34,843 nucleotides of DNA from Spirochaetales bacterium (lineage in GTDB: Bacteria > Spirochaetota > Spirochaetia > Treponematales > Treponemataceae), in NCBI GenBank assembly GCA_016929605.1, contig JAFGIM010000059.1:1-34843 (forward strand), read 5' to 3'. Positions within the stretch are counted from its first letter, which is position 1. Each line of letters starts with the position of its first letter. Below, piece after piece: positions 17,870 through 33,239 of this stretch. The notes beneath the pieces were generated by a model. The model searched no databases. It saw only the letters and a list, made by a program, of their open reading frames with translations, and was not told the origin of the DNA. Position numbers and translations under genes: made by a program.

Positions 17870-18508
17870 ATGATGGTATCAGATGTAATGACGAGTAATC
17901 CCCTGTATGTGCATCCGGATCTGTCCGTTACCGAGGCACGAAATTTAATGCGAAAGGAAAAGGTCGGTCAACTGTTAGTGTTGGACAGGGCGAATAAGCT
18001 TGTTGGTATCGTTACGGAGCGGGACTTGATAAACGCAAGTCCTTCTGAGGCCACCACCCTAAGCATATTTGAGATTAGTTCTCTGTTGGCTAGCCTTAAG
18101 GTTGAACAGGTAATGACCAGGAAGGTGATAAGCGTAGATGAGTCGGTAGTTATCGAGGAAGCCGCCCGCATTATGGTAGATAATGGTATTAGTGCTTTGC
18201 CGGTTATGAAAGGTGATATCCCGGTTGGTATTGTATCTGACGGTGACTTGTTTCGCTTGTTTATAAATCTTTTTGGCGCACGACAAAACGGGCTTAGGAT
18301 AAGCATGCTGGTTCCCGAGAAAAAGGGTGAGCTGCATGACCTGGCAGAGGTCCTAACTCAAAAAGGCGCGAACGTACTTTCAATGGTTATTTGCGATGGC
18401 TGTGATGTAACGAACCGTATGTGCATTATGAAGGTAAGCGATATCAGCAAGGAAGATCTTTTGGATGCGGTTAAACCCTGCTCTCTCAAGGTAGTCGATA
18501 TTCGTTAG
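17870..18508 (+). CDS. CBS-CBS-ACT domain protein (AcuB-like)
   Basis: The 212-residue protein has two CBS domains, about residues 1-58 (VSDVMTSNPLYVHPDLSV, then VGIVTERDL) and 79-132 (VEQVMTRKVISVDESV, then VGIVSDGDLF), forming one adenosyl-nucleotide-binding Bateman module. An ACT-like region follows (about 142-212). This is the AcuB architecture. It lies 41 bases after livF on the same strand and probably shares the liv transcript; a sensor of adenylate or amino-acid state acting on the importer is a reasonable inference, not shown. AAGGAGG (17857-17863) serves ATG 17870, with ATG 17873 also possible. Its end overlaps the convergent rel gene by four bases. Confidence 0.88.
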   Translation: MMVSDVMTSNPLYVHPDLSVTEARNLMRKEKVGQLLVLDRANKLVGIVTERDLINASPSEATTLSIFEISSLLASLKVEQVMTRKVISVDESVVIEEAARIMVDNGISALPVMKGDIPVGIVSDGDLFRLFINLFGARQNGLRISMLVPEKKGELHDLAEVLTQKGANVLSMVICDGCDVTNRMCIMKVSDISKEDLLDAVKPCSLKVVDIR

Positions 18509-20292
18509 TCTTTCTTCTTTTTTGTGGGTTGGGCAATAGCAACAGGTATTTCCCATTCCACCGGTATATTTCTGTTTTGTATGTCCGGTATTGCGGCAAG
18601 GTTTGCGCAATCCGTTCGATGAATAATTATACCTCTTCCTCGTGACACATAGCCAATTATCGGTGCGGGGGGCATTGGTTCGCAGCACTGAGCGAATTTA
18701 ATCATGAAATTAGTCGTGTCCCCAACCCGTATCTTTAGGACTGCACTGTCGAACTGACGAGTTTGCTCTTCGGGTAATGTACTTCGATGATGGGTCTGCT
18801 TTTGAATTGGAGATTGCTTTTCGCCATCGTCTTTCTTTTCGCTCGCATCCTTTGGTTCATTAGCTTGAAGCCAGGCGCGAATTTTCTGGCGAGCTTTAGC
18901 AGTTCGAACTGAATTATATTGATTCTGCGTGGGGTGAGCCTGTGGATGGGTAATTATTTCAATTACCTGCGTATTTTTTAAGGCTTGCGACAGAGGAATA
19001 ATCGATCCATCTGCCCTGGCGCCTACTATTTTTTCTCCAATGGCTGAGTGTATGTGGTATGCAAAATCAACGGCAGTAGAAAGAGCAGGCAATTCGACAA
19101 TATCTCCCTTTGGGGTAAAGACATAGATTGAATCTCCAAGAAGATCCGTCTTTATCCTGGCCAGGAAATCCTCATCGGAAAATCTGCCTTTTGATAATTC
19201 TTTTAGCTGATTGATAATGGAAAGGTGATCGGCATTAACGATTTCCTTTCCACTTCCTTTTTTATATAGCCAGTGACTGGCAATACCGTTCTCTGCTATA
19301 TGATGCATCTCAAAGGTTCTGATTTGAATTTCGAGCATTCTGCCGTGATCGCACATAACAGTGGTATGAAGGCTTTGATACCCGTTAGGTTTTGGCATGG
19401 CAATATAGTCCTTAAATCTTCCATCAAGAGGCTTCCAGACTGTATGGACCAGGCCAAGAAGGGTGTAGCATTCATGAACCGTTGAACAGAGAATACGCAT
19501 AGCCAGAAGGTCGTACAGTTCATCTACGCCTTTGTTGCGTTTCTTCATTTTTTGGTAAATTGACCAGAAGTGCTTTGCACGAGAGTGGATTTCAACAGAA
19601 AGACCTGCTTGTTGGGCTGCGCTGTAGAGCGCCTTTTCTGCAGAATCAAGAAATTCCGCTCTTTCCCCTTTTTTAGCGGCAACAAGATTTTTGATTTGCT
19701 CGTATACCTCGCGATTAAGGTATTTAAGGCTCAGGTCTTCAAGTTCATCTTTGATGTAGGATATTCCAAGGCGGTTTGCCAGAGGTGCCCAAATATCGAT
19801 TGTTTCCTGGGCTATGGACCTTTGTTGCTCGATGGGGAAGTTTTTAAGACTTCTCATCTTGTCCAGACGGTCGGCCAAGCGTACCAGAATGACCCGGATA
19901 TCGTCGACCATGGCAAAAAACATTTTTCTGATAGATTCAGCTTGTTGAATTGTTTTATTTTTTAGCTTGAGGGCAGAAATTCGCGAAGTACCTTCTACAA
20001 GGGTGCGAACCGTTTTACCGAATTGCCGTTCAATCTCGTCTGCGGTGAACCCGAGCTCTTCCATTGAACCATGTAAAAAAGCGCACGCTATGGATGGACT
20101 GTCTAGTTGGAGTGAGGCAAGAATGCGAGCAACGCGTATTGGGTGTTCAAGGAATGCTTCGCCGCAAAGGCGACGAACATCGCCTCTTTTTTGGCACATC
20201 AGCTCCCATGCTTGCGTTATAAGGGCCTGGTCATCGCCATCGAGGTATGGGTAGTCTGCAAAAAAATCATCAAGAAGCTTTGTTATTTCCAT
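18505..20292 (-). CDS. rel: RelA/SpoT-family (p)ppGpp synthetase, altered HD site and no ACT domain
   Basis: The enzyme makes the stringent-response alarmone from ATP and GDP/GTP. Order of domains in 595 residues: HD hydrolase region (about 25-170), synthetase (about 235-345), TGS (388-447), then the CC/zinc-finger-like region with Cys536-Cys537 and GIIIHRTDC. The synthetase motif is RFKD (292-295), the form typical of bifunctional enzymes, with the GYQSLHTTV and EIQIRT motifs intact. The hydrolase signature is changed: His50 remains, but the HD pair is His74-Gly75 and LADRLHNMRT reads LADRLDKMRS. The family's C-terminal ACT domain is missing (usual length 700-750). The start overlaps the prmC end by 10 bases. 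Confidence 0.93.
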   Translation of the reverse strand: MEITKLLDDFFADYPYLDGDDQALITQAWELMCQKRGDVRRLCGEAFLEHPIRVARILASLQLDSPSIACAFLHGSMEELGFTADEIERQFGKTVRTLVEGTSRISALKLKNKTIQQAESIRKMFFAMVDDIRVILVRLADRLDKMRSLKNFPIEQQRSIAQETIDIWAPLANRLGISYIKDELEDLSLKYLNREVYEQIKNLVAAKKGERAEFLDSAEKALYSAAQQAGLSVEIHSRAKHFWSIYQKMKKRNKGVDELYDLLAMRILCSTVHECYTLLGLVHTVWKPLDGRFKDYIAMPKPNGYQSLHTTVMCDHGRMLEIQIRTFEMHHIAENGIASHWLYKKGSGKEIVNADHLSIINQLKELSKGRFSDEDFLARIKTDLLGDSIYVFTPKGDIVELPALSTAVDFAYHIHSAIGEKIVGARADGSIIPLSQALKNTQVIEIITHPQAHPTQNQYNSVRTAKARQKIRAWLQANEPKDASEKKDDGEKQSPIQKQTHHRSTLPEEQTRQFDSAVLKIRVGDTTNFMIKFAQCCEPMPPAPIIGYVSRGRGIIIHRTDCANLAAIPDIQNRNIPVEWEIPVAIAQPTKKKKD

Positions 20293-21149
20293 GATCCTTC
20301 AACAACCCTCTCTTGTCCGGAAAGATCCGCATGAATGACTATATCAGTAAATCCTTTGAGATTCAAATACTCGCTCGCTTGCTGTGCGTTGTATTCCCCG
20401 GTTTCAATAAGGACCTTTCCTCCCTGTTTTACCACCTGAGGAAGGTGATCTATTAACGAGCGGACAAGATCAAGACCGTCGCTTCCTCCGTCCAGGGCCA
20501 GAAGCGGCTCTGATCGTCCATCATTCAAGAGATGTTTGGCAATAAGTGAAGGGACATAGGGAGGATTTGAAACGACAAGATCGAACGTTCCTTCGTTTTT
20601 GGGGAGTCCCTGTCTAAGATCCCCTTGAATAAACCGAATGGCATTAGGGCTTTGAAGGAGGGTTTGAGCATTGGTCCGGGCAATATCCAGGGCTGGATTG
20701 CTGATGTCGGTAGCGACGCATTGTATATGCTGTTTCTCGGCCTTAAGGGTAATAGCGATACAGCCAGAACCGGTACACACATCAAGGACGCAGAAGGGAG
20801 GAGTATCCGGTATTATGTGTAATGCGCGTTCGATAAGGGTTTCAGTATCAGGCTTTGGAATAAGAGTGGCAGGGGATACAGAGAAGGGGCGCCCCCAAAA
20901 TTCTTTGACGCCGGTAAGATAAGCAACTGGATAACCCATTGAGCGTTTGGAAACGCTTTTATAAAAGGAATCCAGGACACCGTCACACTCAAGATCATCA
21001 TGGGCAGCAAGATAGGAACGTGATACGCCTAAGTGAAAAGCGAGAAGGACTGCAGCGTCCAGGGCTGGGGTCAAATCCGGGTGTAATCCATGTTGTTGTG
21101 CGGCTTCCAGCTTTTCTCTGGCGTATATCAGCGCTTGACGGACCGTCAT
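20283..21149 (-). CDS. prmC: Release-factor glutamine methyltransferase PrmC (HemK)
   Basis: PrmC methylates the Gln of the GGQ motif in release factors, raising termination efficiency. The 288-residue product has the N-terminal substrate-binding helical domain ending in YPVAYLTGVKEFWGRPF, the SAM-binding motif VLDVCTGSGCIAI, and the catalytic NPPYVP that holds the target Gln. All are family hallmarks. On the transcribed strand GGGAGG lies ahead of the ATG. It follows its own substrate gene prfA by 42 bases, a classic pairing, and overlaps rel by 10 bases at its other end. Confidence 0.96.
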   Translation of the reverse strand: MTVRQALIYAREKLEAAQQHGLHPDLTPALDAAVLLAFHLGVSRSYLAAHDDLECDGVLDSFYKSVSKRSMGYPVAYLTGVKEFWGRPFSVSPATLIPKPDTETLIERALHIIPDTPPFCVLDVCTGSGCIAITLKAEKQHIQCVATDISNPALDIARTNAQTLLQSPNAIRFIQGDLRQGLPKNEGTFDLVVSNPPYVPSLIAKHLLNDGRSEPLLALDGGSDGLDLVRSLIDHLPQVVKQGGKVLIETGEYNAQQASEYLNLKGFTDIVIHADLSGQERVVEGSWK

Positions 21150-21191
21150 GTTATCCTCCCGCTCTGTGGTTGCAGGAAGGGCCGTAAGCCC

Positions 21192-22262
21192 TTATTCCGC
21201 CATTGCCTTCAGTTGTTCTTCCCGGGCCGCGATGCAAAGCCCTTCGACCAGCTCGGTCAGATTCCCCTGCATGACCAGATCAAGTTTGTATAGCGTAAGG
21301 TTTATCCGGTGATCGGTAAGTCTGTTTTGGGGAAAGTTATAGGTGCGAATCCTCTCGGACCTGTCTCCCGACCCTACCTGGCTCTTGCGGTTCTCGGCTC
21401 GCTCGGCGTTTTTTTTGCCTTCTTCAAGTTCATACAGTCGTGTACGCAACACGCGCATTGCCTTAGCCTTATTCTTTATTTGGCTTTTTTCGTCTTGCTG
21501 GATTACTACGATACCGGTTGGAATGTGTGTCAGGCGGACTGCCGAGTCTGTAGTGTTAACACATTGTCCCCCGGGGCCTCCCGCTCTCATCACATCGATG
21601 CGAAGGTCTTCTTGGCGGATGGTAATCTCGGTTTCTTCTGCTTCAGGAAGAACGGCAACGGTTGCGGCGCTTGTTTGTATGCGCCCAGAGGCTTCGGTTT
21701 CCGGAACACGCTGTACCCGGTGTACTCCAGATTCATAGCGAAGACTTCCATACACATATTTACCGGTTATGGACAGAATTATTTCCTTGTATCCGCCCAG
21801 TGCTGTTTCGTTAGCCGATAAAACTTCGTACTTCCAACCCTTTGATTCGGCGAAACGGGTGTACATCCTGAAAAGGTCAGCCGCAAAAAGGGCCGCTTCT
21901 TCTCCTCCGGTTCCTCCCCGAATTTCCATGATGATATTTTTTTCTTCAAGGGGATCGGGTGGAATAAGGAGGACTTTTAATTGAGATTCCCTCTGGTCTA
22001 ATTCTTTTTCCAGACGATGTTGTTCGTCTTTTGCCATCTCCCTCATATCGCTGTCGTCGGCTTCCCGAACCATGGCAAGGGTTTCCTCAAGATCCTTTTC
22101 GGCATTAAGGTACAGATCGTATTCTTCCATCAGTCGCGATAAATACGCATGTTCGCGCATGGAATCGCGGTATTTGGCGGGGTTTTTTATCAGGAGGGGA
22201 TCCTGGATATTAGTATCAAGTTCGGCGAAACGAACTCTGAGTCTGTCGAGCTTATCGTGCAT
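21192..22262 (-). CDS. prfA: Peptide chain release factor 1
   Basis: RF1 reads UAA and UAG and triggers peptide release. The 356-residue product has the GGQ catalytic loop (231-233; [18 protein letters not shown]) and the acidic [11 protein letters not shown] segment. The stop-codon-reading tripeptide is PET (187-189), fitting the RF1 PxT pattern where E. coli has PAT; RF2 would have SPF. Window genes end in TAA, TAG and TGA, so an RF2 must exist elsewhere. An inverted repeat AAGGGC/GCCCTT (21177-21193) overlaps its stop, without a T run. Confidence 0.97.
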
Positions 22263-23865: not shown

Positions 23866-23893
23866 AGCGGTTTTGCAGTATTTTTTAAGGAGT

Positions 23894-24199
23894 ATGGAAG
23901 AATTGGGAAAGCCGCAGGCTTTTGGTTCAGTTTCGGAAGAAACGAGCGAGCCGGCGCAATACAAGGTAGTACTCCTCAATGATGACTTTACCACAAAGGA
24001 CTTTGTGGTAGCGGTATTAGTGGCTGTGTTTCATAAAAAGCAGGAAGAGGCTACCGTCATAATGGAAGACGTGCATAAAAAGGGACGGGGTGTAGTAGGT
24101 GCATATTCCTACGATATTGCCGCCACTCGTTGTTTGCAGGTCCATGAAGCGGCTCGGCAAAGCGGATTTCCGCTTAGATGTGTTATGGAGCAGATGTGA
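23894..24199 (+). CDS. clpS: ATP-dependent Clp protease adaptor ClpS
   Basis: ClpS binds N-terminal Leu, Phe, Tyr and Trp and delivers such proteins to ClpA(P). The 101-residue product has a disordered acidic N-terminus (about 1-22) and the ClpS core YKVVLLNDDFTTKDFV. Asn29, Asp30-Asp31 and His61 match the residues holding the N-terminal amine. The gatekeeper Met of E. coli ClpS (Met40, in DDYTPMEFV) aligns with Lys35. AAGGAG (23887-23892) is only one base before ATG 23894, oddly close; TTG 23903 at 10-base spacing is an alternative start that removes three residues. The stop overlaps the clpA GTG by four bases. Confidence 0.94.
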   Translation: MEELGKPQAFGSVSEETSEPAQYKVVLLNDDFTTKDFVVAVLVAVFHKKQEEATVIMEDVHKKGRGVVGAYSYDIAATRCLQVHEAARQSGFPLRCVMEQM

Positions 24200-26685
24200 A
24201 AATAAAGATAACGAGCGCAGTTCAAAAGGCTTTGGATAGGTCGTGGGCTGACGCAAAAGCGAGAAGTCATGAATATGTTACCCCAGAACATCTGTTGTTG
24301 GCAGTGCTCGACTCCCAGTCGGCAATACGGATACTTTCTTTTTGCGGAGCGGATATCTCCTTTATTCACGAGAGTGTAGATGAGTATATTCGTACTACGA
24401 TTCCCGTATCGCCCAATAGGGATCCTCTGCAAACAGTTGGCTTCCAAAGTGTGTTACAGCGAGCGGTATTTCATTGTGAAAACGCGGAGAAATCTGATCT
24501 TGAAATATCTGATATCCTTGTCAGTCTGATCGATGAAGAGCGAAATCATTGTTCTTACTTTCTTCGCAGGGGAGGCCTTGATCGGCTTGCCCTTTTGGAG
24601 GTGATAAGTCATGCGGGAATCGCAGATGACGGGGAGCCTCACCCGGAAGAGGGTGATCCCTTTGTTGGCGGCATGACCGAGGATCCCTTTTTGGGCAAAG
24701 ACCCGTTTGACCTTCGTTCAATTGAGGAAGGAAGGACTGCTGACCCGCAAAGCTCGGCCGGCTTTTCAAAAAAAGCGAGAGGGAGCGGCGAGGAAGATAA
24801 GCCATCTGATGGTGGTGATGGGGAGACTTCGCGCGGTCAAAAGAGTGTTAAGAAAAGTTTCCTTGAACGATTTGCGGTGGAATTAACCGCTTTAGCCAAG
24901 CAAGGATCGCTCGAACCATTGATTGGACGAACAGAAGAGTTGGAGCGAACGGTCCAGGTTCTCTGTCGCCGTATGAAGAATAATCCGGTTCATGTGGGGG
25001 ATGCGGGTGTTGGAAAGACGGCCATTACCGAAGGTTTGGCCCAGTTAATCGCCCGAGGGGAAGTTCCCCCATTCTTGCGCGATTTTGAACTGTATAGCCT
25101 TGATATGGGCGCTCTTGTTGCGGGAACAAAGTTTCGCGGAGATTTTGAAGAGCGCATTAAGCGAGTTCTAGACGAGCTCTTAAAGAAAGACAAGGTTATT
25201 CTATTTATCGACGAGATTCACACCATGATTGGAGCCGGTTCAACCGGTGGCGGAACCCTTGACGCTTCTAATTTAATGAAACCCGTTCTTTCATCGGGAA
25301 AGATACGTTGCATAGGTTCTACAACATACGAGGAGTATAACAAGCACTTTGAAAAGGATCATGCGCTTTCGCGAAGGTTCCAAAAGATAGATATTCTTGA
25401 GCCGTCGCAGGAAGATACTATCAAAATACTTGAAGGGGTTAAAACTCGTTATGAAGACTTTCATGGCGTCAGGTATACTGCCTCGGCTCTTGAAAGTGCC
25501 GTTCGTCTTTCGGCTCAGTATATAAACGAGCGGCGTCTACCCGATAAGGCTATTGATGTTATCGATGAAGCGGGCGCACGTGCGCGTATTCTTGCCGGTT
25601 CTCTTGCTCCAACAGATGCGAATACCCTGGAACAGGGTGAAACCCTTCCGGTAATAGACACCTTTTTGATTGAAACGGTTGTTGCACGAATGGCAAGGAT
25701 ACCGGAGAAAACCGTATCATCAGGAGAGGTTGAACGTTTACGCGACCTGGAAGGGGTCTTGCATCACTCGATTTTTGGGCAGGACATCGCGGTTAAGGCA
25801 GTGTCTCTTGCGGTAAAGAGGTCCCGTGCCGGATTTCGCGCAAAGGGCAGGCCGGTTGCTAACTTCCTGTTCGTCGGCCCAACCGGAGTGGGTAAAACCG
25901 AACTTGCGCGTGTGTTAGCGGACACGCTTGGGGTCTCCCTTATAAGGTTTGACATGAGCGAATATCAGGAAAAGCACACTGTAAGCAGACTTATCGGCTC
26001 GCCTCCCGGATATGTTGGTTTTGATGAGGGTGGGTTGTTAACCGAGGCAGTTCGTAAACAACCGCATGCGGTACTTCTGCTGGACGAGATTGAGAAGGCC
26101 CATACGGACATATTCAATGTTCTTTTGCAGATTATGGACTATGCAACGCTCACTGATAATCAAGGACGTAAAGCTGATTTTCGTAATGTTATCTTGATTA
26201 TGACCAGTAATGCGGGTGCCAGGGAAATCGGAAAACCAATGATTGGATTTGGAGGACGGGAGATCACGGAAGAGGCGGTTAATGAAGCGGTAGATCGTGC
26301 CTTTACCCCGGAATTTCGCAATCGTCTGGATGCGGTAGTCCGGTTCGCCCATCTTTCCCGAGAGGTAATGGTCTCTATTGTTCATAAAGAGCTCGACGGA
26401 GTGTCTGTGCGACTTGCAGAACGTGATGTGCGCTTGGAGATTGATGAGCCTGTGATTCTCTATTTGGCAGACAAGGGATACTCAAACGAATTTGGGGCAC
26501 GTAATGTAAGCCGCCTTATAGAGGATGTAATTACAACCCCGCTTGTTGATATGGTTTTGTTTGGGGATTTGTCCTCGGGAGGCCTTGTCCGGGTATCGCT
26601 TGGTGCCACTGTTGATGCTCCTCTTTCCTTTGAGATTGTGAATACTCAAGAAAAGAGTGCTGTTGAGGAAACTGGAGCGCTGTAA
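24196..26685 (+). CDS. clpA: ATP-dependent Clp protease ATP-binding subunit ClpA
   Basis: ClpA is the unfoldase ring that feeds ClpP. Start GTG 24196, within GTGA overlapping the clpS stop and five bases after GGAG, gives 829 residues. Order: N-domain (1-140), an unusual acidic linker of about 80 residues (142-220) with three DPF tripeptides, AAA-1 (VGDAGVGKT 267-275, then VILFIDEIHTMIGAG), AAA-2 (FVGPTGVGKTEL and VLLLDEIEKAH), and the IGF loop (MIGFGG) that docks into ClpP. E. coli ClpA is about 758 residues, the difference being mostly the linker. No clpP lies in this window. Translation is coupled on both sides. Confidence 0.97.
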   Translation: MKIKITSAVQKALDRSWADAKARSHEYVTPEHLLLAVLDSQSAIRILSFCGADISFIHESVDEYIRTTIPVSPNRDPLQTVGFQSVLQRAVFHCENAEKSDLEISDILVSLIDEERNHCSYFLRRGGLDRLALLEVISHAGIADDGEPHPEEGDPFVGGMTEDPFLGKDPFDLRSIEEGRTADPQSSAGFSKKARGSGEEDKPSDGGDGETSRGQKSVKKSFLERFAVELTALAKQGSLEPLIGRTEELERTVQVLCRRMKNNPVHVGDAGVGKTAITEGLAQLIARGEVPPFLRDFELYSLDMGALVAGTKFRGDFEERIKRVLDELLKKDKVILFIDEIHTMIGAGSTGGGTLDASNLMKPVLSSGKIRCIGSTTYEEYNKHFEKDHALSRRFQKIDILEPSQEDTIKILEGVKTRYEDFHGVRYTASALESAVRLSAQYINERRLPDKAIDVIDEAGARARILAGSLAPTDANTLEQGETLPVIDTFLIETVVARMARIPEKTVSSGEVERLRDLEGVLHHSIFGQDIAVKAVSLAVKRSRAGFRAKGRPVANFLFVGPTGVGKTELARVLADTLGVSLIRFDMSEYQEKHTVSRLIGSPPGYVGFDEGGLLTEAVRKQPHAVLLLDEIEKAHTDIFNVLLQIMDYATLTDNQGRKADFRNVILIMTSNAGAREIGKPMIGFGGREITEEAVNEAVDRAFTPEFRNRLDAVVRFAHLSREVMVSIVHKELDGVSVRLAERDVRLEIDEPVILYLADKGYSNEFGARNVSRLIEDVITTPLVDMVLFGDLSSGGLVRVSLGATVDAPLSFEIVNTQEKSAVEETGAL

Positions 26686-27476
26686 TGTCCTACGCGAATC
26701 ATACATTTGATGCGGACACCCGCTTTGATCCAGATTTTCCCTGGTTAGAAGCGGGGGATTTTTTTTCATTTCCTGATCCCGAGGAAACCCAGGGCTCGGT
26801 GGTTGCGGTTGGGGGAAATCTTTCTCCGGGGATGATACTCTCTGCATACACCCAGGGGATATTTCCCTGGTTTAACGAAGATGATCCCCTATACTGGCAG
26901 TCACCGGATCCCCGATTTGTTATCTTTCCGCATGTATTTCGCCTTCCGGAGCGTCTGTCGCGTCAAATCAAGACCAGTACGCTTCGACTCACTGTTGATA
27001 CCGCGTTTAACAGGGTTATATCCTTTTGCTCCGGGGTTCAAAGACGGGGGCAGGATGGTACCTGGATTACCGAAGACATGATAGAGGCGTATCAGGCCTT
27101 GCATTCGGCGGGATTTGCGCATTCAATTGAAGCATGGCAGGGGAATGATCTTGTCGGCGGTTTTTATGGGGTGCATCTGGGACGAATGTTCTTTGGAGAG
27201 TCCATGTTTACCCGTTTGCCAAACGCGGCAAAGATTGCCTTTGTTGCCTTTGCCCGTTACTTTTTTACTACAATGAAAGGGACCTGTATTGATTCCCAGG
27301 TATATACCGATCACATTGCTCGCTTTGGCGGGATGAATATCTCGCGGAGCGCCTACCTCAAGACGCTCTCCGATGCCTTGGGCTCCGGCTTTCCTGATGC
27401 CTTGATGGAGGGGCGTGGATTATGGCCGGCCGGGATGTTAAGCGGGTATCAGGCCTCGGGAGGGCTAAACTTATAG
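26685..27476 (+). CDS. aat: Leucyl/phenylalanyl-tRNA-protein transferase
   Basis: Aat adds Leu or Phe from aminoacyl-tRNA to proteins that begin with Lys or Arg, creating degrons for ClpS. The 263-residue product has the family blocks FPDPEETQG-VAVGGNLSPGMILSAYTQGIFPWF (in part), SPDPRFVI, DGTWITEDMIEAYQALH, then GGFYGVHLGRMFFGESMF and DSQVYTDHIARFGG. Its ATG overlaps the clpA stop by one base. With clpS and clpA it makes a full N-degron cassette. The last 28 bases overlap the convergent response-regulator gene. Length is about 30 residues above E. coli. Confidence 0.96.
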   Translation: MSYANHTFDADTRFDPDFPWLEAGDFFSFPDPEETQGSVVAVGGNLSPGMILSAYTQGIFPWFNEDDPLYWQSPDPRFVIFPHVFRLPERLSRQIKTSTLRLTVDTAFNRVISFCSGVQRRGQDGTWITEDMIEAYQALHSAGFAHSIEAWQGNDLVGGFYGVHLGRMFFGESMFTRLPNAAKIAFVAFARYFFTTMKGTCIDSQVYTDHIARFGGMNISRSAYLKTLSDALGSGFPDALMEGRGLWPAGMLSGYQASGGLNL

Positions 27477-29934: not shown

Positions 29935-32439
29935 TTACAATTTGTCTTGCCATTGACGAAGGATCCACAGAATTCCTTGATGCGTCAACTTAAGGCTTGT
30001 CCCGCAATGAGGACAAAGGAATCTACCTTCGTCATTGATGTGTTCTCGTGCACAGCCGATACACAGGTGTTTTTGACAGGTTGGGCAGGTCCCCGCCGGT
30101 ACATCATCCGGAGGCATATCGTTTATTCTGAGAATTCCCTGTGGCGGTATGGACTTTGGGTATCGCCACTGTCTGCCACACTGATTGCACGATACGCTAT
30201 CGGTCGATGCGTCTAGTATACGCTGCGAAAGGATGTCGGCCTGATCAGGTGTGCCGGCAGCAATAAGGCGGGGGATGATTTTTTCGGCCTTTGATGGGCG
30301 CCCTGTGGAAAGGTACACTTCTGCCAGAGAAGACAGCAGTTCCGTATTGTTGGGAAATTCCGACAAGCCCTGATGAAGGGTAACTTCGGATCGGGCAAAT
30401 TCGCCCTTGCGCAGGGCAAGTATGCTGATAAGTCGATATACATCCGGTGAGCTTTGGAGATCAAGGGCCTTTGATAAAAGGTCATCGGCTTCGTTGAGGA
30501 GGTCAAGCTCAATGCAATTAGAGGCTCGGTCGGTCAGCAATTCGCTGTCATATGGTAGTCTTTTTTGCGCCTGGCGGTACCAGTCTTCTGCATCCTCGTA
30601 CCGACCGTCAGACACCAGAAGGTTCGCTGCGCAATGAAGGAGCTTGCCGTCGTCTCGATTAAAGTCGTTTAGTATTTCATCGAGTCTGCCTTGCTGGCGA
30701 CGAACTTCTCCCAAGTTAACCAGAATATCTCCTTCCTGAGGGAGAAGAATTCTTGCCTTGTGCAACAAGGTGTCTGCCTGGGATACATCACCTTCTGAAA
30801 GGGCGACAAGAGCGGCAAGGTTATATATCCATCCGTTATCATCGGCCAGGGATAAGGCTCGTGAGAGTTCTTCCTTGCACGGCAGGTTAAGGTTGAATTT
30901 GGTCTCTGCAAGCCGGAAATGATAGAGCGCACAGCTGTCCTCAAGTTGTATCGCTCGCTCAAATGCCTCAATCGCTTGCGCTGACTGTTCGTGTTCCCTA
31001 AGGATCATTCCATAGAGATACCACACACCGGAGTCACTGGTGTTTTTATCTATTAAAGACCGAATATATGGCTCGGCTTGTGCCGTCTCTCCAATTGAAT
31101 AAAAATATTTACCGGCAAGGGCTTGGACATCCTCGTCTTCTTTCCCATAGTCCAAAAGAAGGGCTATCGCTCCGTCCAGGTTTTCATAATCGCTTTCTTC
31201 CATAAAAATTCGAGCTGCCTTAACCCATGCACCGATGGCTTGCGGGATACTACCTGTTACGAGCCATTCCTTACCTTCGTTAAAAAAATAAAGCCCATTA
31301 TTTACAGAAAGAATACCTGCTCTTTGGTAAGCACGTGCAGCGTCTGTGTATGCTCCTTTTCCATGGAGAAGGTGTCCTTCCAGGTTGGAAAGAAAGGCTG
31401 AGTTCTCTATTGTGGTTGCCGGTAGGGTCTTAAAAAAAGAATCCAGGGCGGCTGCATTATTGGACAGATACAGAGCGCTTGCAATAGAAGCGATCGCTTC
31501 AGAATTTGAAGGGTTAAGAGAAAGCGCTTTTCTTGCAGCGTCTTCTGCTTCGGATAGTAGTCCTTGTGCAAGGTATATTTGCGCGCCAAGAAGAAGTTCT
31601 TTCTCTCCGCTTTCCCGCTTTGCAGCCGCCTGTTTGAGCGACGCCAGGGCAGGTCCAAAATGCCCCATTGCAAAACGTGTTGTAGCAAGACGCAGGTGTG
31701 CTTCAGGTGATATTGCAAGATAGTGATTCCAGCGGGAGTGAAGTGCTTCTATCTCCATCGGTCGACTGTCAATCCCGATAGCTTTAAGGTATACAGATAC
31801 ATCCTTGCGCTCTTTCCACGTTTGTGCCGCAAAGGCTATACGCCCTGCAGCCTGAATCGTATCATCCTCGCATTCGGCTACCCATTCATCATTTACGATA
31901 AGTGTAATACTGGTTCCCCGGGCAATAATCCTTAGAGAGAATACATTGGGATTTTCGTGATAGGGTAATAGTGCATCACCTTGTGAATCCTGGTTTCCCA
32001 TCGCGGTCTCCGTCCAACCAAGGACAGGCAGCGGTGTTTCATTAACAACTGCATCCAGGCGAATCATTCCACCATCAGAGACCATTACGCTGTAGAATGT
32101 TGAATCGTTGAGGCATCTAAAGTGAATTCCTGCGGCCATGGATCCTGCCATAGAGTCGGCTCTTGGAATGGGATCAGGAAATTCGATAAGGGCTTCGATA
32201 ACAGCATCTTGATAGCGGTATACAGGATTGGTGATCCATGCAAAACAATTGTTTCTAAAGATGGTGAGTATAACGCCTGCGCGGTTTACGGTTGCCTCGT
32301 ATCCATCGCCACATTCGCCTGTGAATCGATCATCAGTTTTGGACGAAAAAGTGCAGACCCAATTTTCCTGGGGGATATCGTCGAGATCGGGAACAACATC
32401 AGACTTTTTTATGAAAAGACGTTTCAGGAATGAGAACAT
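29935..32439 (-). CDS. Beta-sandwich / TPR / zinc-module fusion protein, function unknown
   Basis: I do not recognise this 834-residue protein as a named family. Residues 1-12 (MFSFLKRLFIKK) could be an amphipathic helix; there is no signal peptide or clear membrane segment. About 24-225 looks like a jelly-roll of the laminin-G/DUF1080 kind (FYSVMVSDGGMIRLD, VFSLRIIARGTSITLIVND), by pattern only. About 230-745 is tetratricopeptide-like (SEAEDAARKALSLNPSNSEA, QAIEAFERAIQLEDSCALYH). The end has eight Cys in four CxxC pairs (751/754, 785/788, 793/796, 809/812) with His800, fit for two zinc ions. Start ATG 32439 is five bases after the acetyltransferase stop; TTG 32448 is an alternative. Confidence 0.85.
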   Translation of the reverse strand: MFSFLKRLFIKKSDVVPDLDDIPQENWVCTFSSKTDDRFTGECGDGYEATVNRAGVILTIFRNNCFAWITNPVYRYQDAVIEALIEFPDPIPRADSMAGSMAAGIHFRCLNDSTFYSVMVSDGGMIRLDAVVNETPLPVLGWTETAMGNQDSQGDALLPYHENPNVFSLRIIARGTSITLIVNDEWVAECEDDTIQAAGRIAFAAQTWKERKDVSVYLKAIGIDSRPMEIEALHSRWNHYLAISPEAHLRLATTRFAMGHFGPALASLKQAAAKRESGEKELLLGAQIYLAQGLLSEAEDAARKALSLNPSNSEAIASIASALYLSNNAAALDSFFKTLPATTIENSAFLSNLEGHLLHGKGAYTDAARAYQRAGILSVNNGLYFFNEGKEWLVTGSIPQAIGAWVKAARIFMEESDYENLDGAIALLLDYGKEDEDVQALAGKYFYSIGETAQAEPYIRSLIDKNTSDSGVWYLYGMILREHEQSAQAIEAFERAIQLEDSCALYHFRLAETKFNLNLPCKEELSRALSLADDNGWIYNLAALVALSEGDVSQADTLLHKARILLPQEGDILVNLGEVRRQQGRLDEILNDFNRDDGKLLHCAANLLVSDGRYEDAEDWYRQAQKRLPYDSELLTDRASNCIELDLLNEADDLLSKALDLQSSPDVYRLISILALRKGEFARSEVTLHQGLSEFPNNTELLSSLAEVYLSTGRPSKAEKIIPRLIAAGTPDQADILSQRILDASTDSVSCNQCGRQWRYPKSIPPQGILRINDMPPDDVPAGTCPTCQKHLCIGCAREHINDEGRFLCPHCGTSLKLTHQGILWILRQWQDKL

Positions 32440-32444
32440 ACCGC

Positions 32445-33239
32445 TCAAAGGTATCCCAAATCACGGTATCTGTCTACGCAAAAGTCCACTGCAGAGCGCA
32501 TCCGGACTAGACGGAAGAGGGCTTCCGGTTTCGCTCCTGGGAAGGTTCCCTTAATGATATTGTCACTCTTGTGTTCCTCAAAATCTTGTCCAATATGAGC
32601 GAATCGCTCTTGATGTAATACGGGTTCCTGCCATACAGAACGACAAGGTAAGCCAAAATGTGATGATATCGCTGTGTACGTAAGGGTGTCTGTGTGATCC
32701 ATCCAATCTGCCAGATGAAAGGCTGTGCAGCTTTCCCAGGAGCAGCCGAGCATCAAGATAAGTGCATCTTTTGCATAGAGGCTACCCAGCGGGGACTGTG
32801 GGCCGAGTCCCTGGCGACATGGATGGGATGACATCAATTTTTTTGCTCCGTAACCTTCCGCGCAAAAAGAGTAAAAGGGATGATTAGAACGCTTGATTCC
32901 AGCTGTTTTTCGAAAAAGCTCCGGCAAAGCGCCCATAGCGCGACAAGTAGTGTCCCTTTTGTTATACACAAACGGTACTGCAAAGGGCTGTGCTGGATCT
33001 GGGGTGTCGCTGAACGTGGGCATAACCAGGGTGGCATCTTTTTTTTTGCAGCTTCTCCGCAAGGCTTCCAAAACGGTGGCGGCGGCCATGGGCATCGGGT
33101 GGAACGAGGACAGGGATGAATGAACTAGTAGATAGGGCTTCTTTGGAGGAGGTTCTGCGTCGAATAAAAGAGATGAAGAGGAAAGCAGTGAGGAAAAAAA
33201 ATCAGTTAAATTGTTGAAAAAGGCAACTAATTCGCCCAT
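32445..33239 (-). CDS. AAC(3)-family acetyltransferase-like protein
   Basis: Members of this family (antibiotic NAT / YokD-like) transfer acetyl from acetyl-CoA; some act on aminoglycosides, many have no known substrate. The 264-residue product has VHSSLSSF (about 39-46), VMPTFS, then the signature DTTCRAMGALPELFRKTAG and RSNHPFYSFCAEG, followed by GPQSPLGSLY and CTAFHLADWMDHTD, all at family spacing. The first 35 residues are a variable Ser/Leu-rich stretch ending PPPKKP. GGGAAGG precedes the ATG. It heads the four-gene minus cluster and diverges from the beta-glucosidase across 64 bases. A resistance function should not be assumed. Confidence 0.85.
   Translation of the reverse strand: MGELVAFFNNLTDFFSSLLSSSSLLFDAEPPPKKPYLLVHSSLSSFHPMPMAAATVLEALRRSCKKKDATLVMPTFSDTPDPAQPFAVPFVYNKRDTTCRAMGALPELFRKTAGIKRSNHPFYSFCAEGYGAKKLMSSHPCRQGLGPQSPLGSLYAKDALILMLGCSWESCTAFHLADWMDHTDTLTYTAISSHFGLPCRSVWQEPVLHQERFAHIGQDFEEHKSDNIIKGTFPGAKPEALFRLVRMRSAVDFCVDRYRDLGYL

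Follow-up and report, generated by a model that had tools for sequence, protein, structure and literature searches.

A conserved TPR protein of spirochaetes with a predicted CBM66-like beta-sandwich and a predicted RING-like zinc module: a possible scaffold at the inner membrane

Several described systems resemble parts of the protein analysed here. The CBM66 module of the B. subtilis levanase SacC is part of a secreted sugar enzyme. RING and FYVE fingers are built as a cross-brace, in which ligands 1, 2, 5 and 6 form one zinc site and ligands 3, 4, 7 and 8 the other. The TPR protein LapB (YciM) is attached to the membrane, has a transmembrane helix and ends in a metal module of the four-cysteine rubredoxin type. 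LapB is reported to regulate FtsH-mediated proteolysis. Among spirochaete proteins, TP0920 of Treponema pallidum is a conserved hypothetical protein annotated as a "tetratricopeptide repeat protein". It was listed under "Energy production" from guilt by association and gene context (PMC2386257), and in the literature found no role is given to it beyond the TPR label and this guess.

The window, meaning the whole stretch of DNA analysed (34,843 nucleotides), is one entire contig of a 2.16 Mb genome assembly that is 77.8% complete. It contains a relative of TP0920 on the minus strand (29935..32439), an open reading frame of 834 codons plus a stop, with its ATG at 32439 and a stop codon ending at 29935. 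The ORF call and the homologues agree on this gene; nearly all of its 834 residues can be aligned in genomes of the same taxonomic family at 31-51% identity, which puts the frame beyond chance. The sequence has no apparent signal peptide, as an earlier note on this DNA had stated, and no transmembrane segment is apparent in it. Pfam models above cut-off matched the TPRs only and no NCBIfam model passed its cut-off. A similarity search of the 77.8%-complete assembly found no second copy, the sole other match being a TPR stretch with 23% identity (E 9e-7). Structure prediction of the full-length protein from the single sequence gave a pLDDT of 44.7, too low to read a fold. The domain architecture is well supported by sequence, and the function is inferred.

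The first 12 residues, MFSFLKRLFIKK (32404..32439, minus strand), are a basic amphipathic start and a candidate membrane-targeting helix. This start had been pointed out before, and comparison shows that the motif M[FL]xFL[KR]RLFxxK recurs across divergent families; the amphipathic start is missing from four homologues of another class. The window start MFSFLKRLF resembles the MinD membrane helix GFLKRLFGG, FLKRLF being common to both. E. coli MinD ends in KKGFLKRLFGG, and this C-terminal end is its amphipathic membrane helix. MinD proteins bind the membrane via an amphipathic helix (PMC13246001). Against a background of 504 ORFs from the fetched loci, 62 starts (~12%) equal or exceed the window start in moment and charge. 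A single start of this kind is thus unremarkable and the membrane-helix argument rests on conservation; the first helix is a probable membrane dock of the protein.

Residues 18-232 (31744..32388, minus strand) form a predicted beta-sandwich of the CBM66/concanavalin-A-like type. A profile of 33 N-domain sequences of the family, A4, was compared with PDB sequences and matched the CBM66 of SacC (4b1l, 4azz, 4b1m) at E 3-5e-5 over ~110 residues. A weaker match was to 4jqt, a putative glycosyl hydrolase (E 0.009). The likeness to CBM66 and DUF1080 (PF06439) spans the core sandwich. Single members of the family gave weak matches to PF06439, Laminin_G_3 and GH43_C2, all of which are concanavalin-A-like. 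The window N-domain alone matched nothing in Pfam above cut-off; the window protein scored 12.9 bits with PF06439, where the gathering cut-off is 26.8, and alignment of the N-domain with four PF06439 members by hhalign was weak (probability 12%). A profile-level match to a superfamily member of known structure, E 3e-5, supports the earlier reading of the beta-rich first quarter as a sandwich. Unlike the SacC module, the window domain is joined to a TPR array in a protein with no apparent signal peptide, and it stays below the Pfam cut-off. Invariant residues make up 12% of the N-domain (25 positions) compared with 5% of the TPRs. Of these 25 residues 17 have polar or aromatic side chains, a pattern that suggests a candidate conserved binding site.

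The middle of the protein, residues 233-744 (30208..31743, minus strand), is a TPR alpha-solenoid, as its helices had suggested in the earlier note. Many Pfam TPR models match residues ~236-735 (best E 7e-24), with tandem motifs above cut-off, and TPR proteins are matched in the PDB. The solenoid has ~14 repeats, as estimated from its length.

Residues 745-834 (29938..30207, minus strand) carry the putative zinc module, followed by a C-terminal helix. The four CxxC pairs that the earlier note placed at 751, 785, 793 and 809 are invariant in all 14 same-family sequences. The His it had added to them is not conserved in the same-family alignment. All eight cysteines are found in 40 of 47 distinct sequences across the whole family. 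The pairs C751/C754 (30178..30189) and C793/C796 (30052..30063), which would ligate zinc at site I, are kept in 47/47. The pairs C785/C788 (30076..30087) and C809/C812 (30004..30015), all four pairs being on the minus strand, would ligate zinc at site II. Five of the 47 sequences, those of family f7 (loci L107, L108, L120, L124 and L132), read CCSTCCCS, with Ser or Thr in place of cysteines 3, 4 and 8; one putative site is gone and the other kept. Two other sequences have Asp at position 8 (C812).

Two arrangements of these eight ligands were weighed: one interleaved binuclear module, or two serial zinc ribbons serving nucleic-acid or general protein binding. Loss of cysteines 3, 4 and 8 with 1, 2, 5 and 6 retained is the loss of a single site only if the pairing is (1,2,5,6)/(3,4,7,8), and it would break both serial ribbons. 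This evidence for interleaving is indirect, and the co-loss is probably one event because the five f7 sequences are related. The zinc-module profile, built from 31 sequences, matched the RING fingers of RNF4 (E 8.9e-6, summed over two copies) and TRIM37 (E 5.1e-5), and most of its best 60 matches were RINGs, in alignments covering mainly ligands 3-8. A decoy profile of 16 sequences, in which the Cys columns were fixed and the others shuffled, gave seven matches, none below E 0.25; the RING likeness thus depends on residues other than cysteine. The serial arrangement draws on a weak Pfam DZR match of the window protein, below cut-off (E 1e-4 or 0.04 depending on the search), and on a predicted model of the C-terminal piece, a poor one (pLDDT 59, core 78-84), for which Foldseek placed TFIIE zinc ribbons at the top of its list, ahead of RINGs. 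The RING matches, the failure of the decoy and the co-loss of cysteines 3, 4 and 8 make one RING-like module the most likely reading; the co-loss disfavours a serial double ribbon, which we regard as improbable for this part of the protein. The RING-like module shares with RNF4, TRIM37 and prokaryotic RING families its eight ligands, their similar spacing and the probable cross-brace. It differs from RINGs in being all-Cys, in the four-residue spacer that separates its middle pairs, the second and the third, in a long first loop of 30 residues, and in having no known ubiquitin partner; all Pfam RING models remained below cut-off.

The earlier note had taken the protein for an unusual, undescribed-looking fusion and proposed a search for its three-part architecture across Spirochaetota. 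The protein is no isolated fusion; it belongs to an old family. Homologues, mostly near full length and 31-51% identical, are present in 33 of 145 genomes of the window's taxonomic family. In 393 sampled Spirochaetota genomes the N-domain profile matched 44 and the zinc module was found in 35, always within the same long ORF as the N-domain; one zinc-module match lies on a short contig, in an open frame of 231 residues. The N-domain and TPRs in one ORF define this TP0920-type family of spirochaetes. In four members that belong to another class, identity is low but beta-domain, TPRs and zinc module follow one another in this order. The gene is not universally needed, since many spirochaete genomes are without it. 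A scan for relatives in a genome-contig collection yielded one unrelated cyanobacterial TPR protein, and viral contigs gave none. No description of the same domain order was found in the literature searched. The family is of interest as a conserved, unstudied spirochaete protein and as a RING-like finger in bacteria.

A tree of 43 sequences broadly follows taxonomy; the family is ancient and vertically inherited in spirochaetes. The sequences that have no zinc module, those of the T. denticola/T. pallidum lineage and its kin, group in a single, fully supported clade. With the root placed outside this clade, the tree implies one loss of the module. Five module-less loci (L015-L019, from genomes G057, G050, G071, G064 and G043) have instead long Ala/Lys/Thr-rich, histone-like C-terminal tails.

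Two of the genomes that bear homologues are, we assume, T. pallidum Nichols and T. denticola ATCC 35405. In T. pallidum the gene order is HD-GYP, TPR, mgtE, the homologue, NADH oxidase, a Tex-like S1 protein and flavodoxin. A published list gives TP0912 as HD, TP0915 and TP0920 as TPR and TP0923 as PEGA (PMC5951579). Gene order and locus list agree, which identifies the T. pallidum homologue as TP0920. It has a homologous N-domain and TPRs, with ~40% identity to the window protein; unlike the latter, TP0920 is without the RING-like module, and so is the homologue in T. denticola. The gene has been kept in the 1.1-Mb T. pallidum genome. These two species kept the body of the protein in a lineage that lost the finger once, a natural experiment on each part. 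A few genes upstream of TP0920 there is another TPR gene (L033:4117-5451, plus strand), which its position in the gene order identifies as TP0915.

The genes next to the homologues vary among lineages. In seven deep-branching families (f2, f4, f7, f9, f14, f19 and f20) the gene heads an apparent operon on one strand, followed by lolA, rodZ, usually rimO, and uvrD. Here lolA was placed by the LolA model and the rodZ-type gene is an HTH gene placed by HTH_25. This context points to an envelope pathway and makes an envelope role directly testable. The co-occurrence of lolA and rodZ-type genes with the family was uninformative as evidence: all 40 genomes tested have both, including 12 in which the target gene was not found, so it shows no dependence. 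The operon lends indirect support to the "envelope-associated" half of the earlier proposal; its other half, a role in stress, found no support. In family f3, prfA-prmC-relA/spoT follows the gene in three of four genomes; among the members from the other class, the following gene is of the PHP type. The window has prfA-prmC-relA/spoT at 18505-22262 (minus strand), ~8 kb downstream of the target, a relic of shared order.

Taken together, these features suggest a cytoplasmic TPR scaffold docked at the inner membrane and tied to envelope biogenesis, a tentative reading to which we give a probability of roughly 45%. The basic amphipathic first helix would insert into the inner leaflet of the inner membrane from the cytoplasmic side. 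The CBM66-like sandwich next to it may recognise a ligand, which could be a sugar or lipid head group or a protein. The TPR solenoid would hold at least one client protein, and a further protein contact would be made by the RING-like module, presumably zinc-bound. The work of such a scaffold would probably be tied to lipoprotein transport and cell shape, in the manner of a LapB/YciM-style adaptor. LapB, which combines TPRs with a metal module at its C-terminus and acts at the cytoplasmic face of the inner membrane, is the nearest working analogue, and alpha-COP and the Vps proteins are the nearest in layout; no family membership is claimed. LapB differs in having a transmembrane helix and a four-cysteine rubredoxin-type module and in lacking the beta-sandwich.

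A soluble TPR scaffold serving cytoplasmic metabolism or redox, with no membrane role, would fit the published annotation of TP0920, which was drawn from the annotation of interaction partners and gene context (PMC2386257), and nox (TP0921, NADH oxidase) does lie directly after TP0920 in T. pallidum. In the other homologues compared, nox is not a neighbour; aroA is found in three, and lolA/rodZ or prfA elsewhere. "Energy production" read from nox was rejected on this ground, and the published guess is open to question, since the neighbour on which it relies does not stay next to the gene in the relatives. The amphipathic start is conserved, which also argues against a purely soluble protein, an unlikely reading on balance. 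Somewhat less likely is a protein-quality-control adaptor that delivers clients to a protease of the AAA+ type, in the way that LapB serves FtsH. The regulation of FtsH-mediated proteolysis reported for LapB would agree with such an adaptor, as would LapB's combination of membrane attachment, TPRs and a C-terminal rubredoxin-type module, and clpS, clpA and aat are found nearby in the genus of the window. These Clp genes are encoded on the opposite strand, however, and are not near the target beyond close relatives of the window; LapB models of NCBIfam are absent among matches of the window protein up to E 1, and the eight-cysteine module is of a different kind.

The protein also resembles alpha-COP, Vps8, Vps11, Vps18 and Vps39 in layout, with a beta-domain first, then an alpha-solenoid and at the C-terminus a RING-like finger (PMC4678705), and coat-like proteins occur in planctomycetes and their relatives (PMC2799638). 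A convergent, spirochaete-specific counterpart of such coats or tethers might dock at the membrane, self-assemble and organise the inner membrane or envelope machinery, and if so would be an organiser for the unusually shaped cells of spirochaetes. We consider this very improbable. The likeness is one of layout: the eukaryotic trafficking proteins have a beta-propeller where the window protein has a sandwich, its solenoid is made of TPRs, and the lineage of T. pallidum and T. denticola does without the RING. Spirochaetes are not known to have endomembranes. A scaffold docked at the inner membrane stays the preferred reading.

Two further features of the window lie near the gene. The N-degron proteolysis cluster clpS-clpA-aat, at 23873-27476 on the plus strand, is kept near the target in close relatives of the window; a ClpS/ClpA/Aat link was rejected, as it is confined to these and lies on the opposite strand. 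An acetyltransferase gene of the Antibiotic_NAT family (AAC(3)-like), at 32445-33239 on the minus strand, ends five bases before the target, and its product scores far too low to pass the curated cut-offs of any named aminoglycoside resistance enzyme. The earlier note had asked whether this gene and a kinase gene stay adjacent; the acetyltransferase does so at three loci and the kinase/regulator pair at about five, all within the window's own family.
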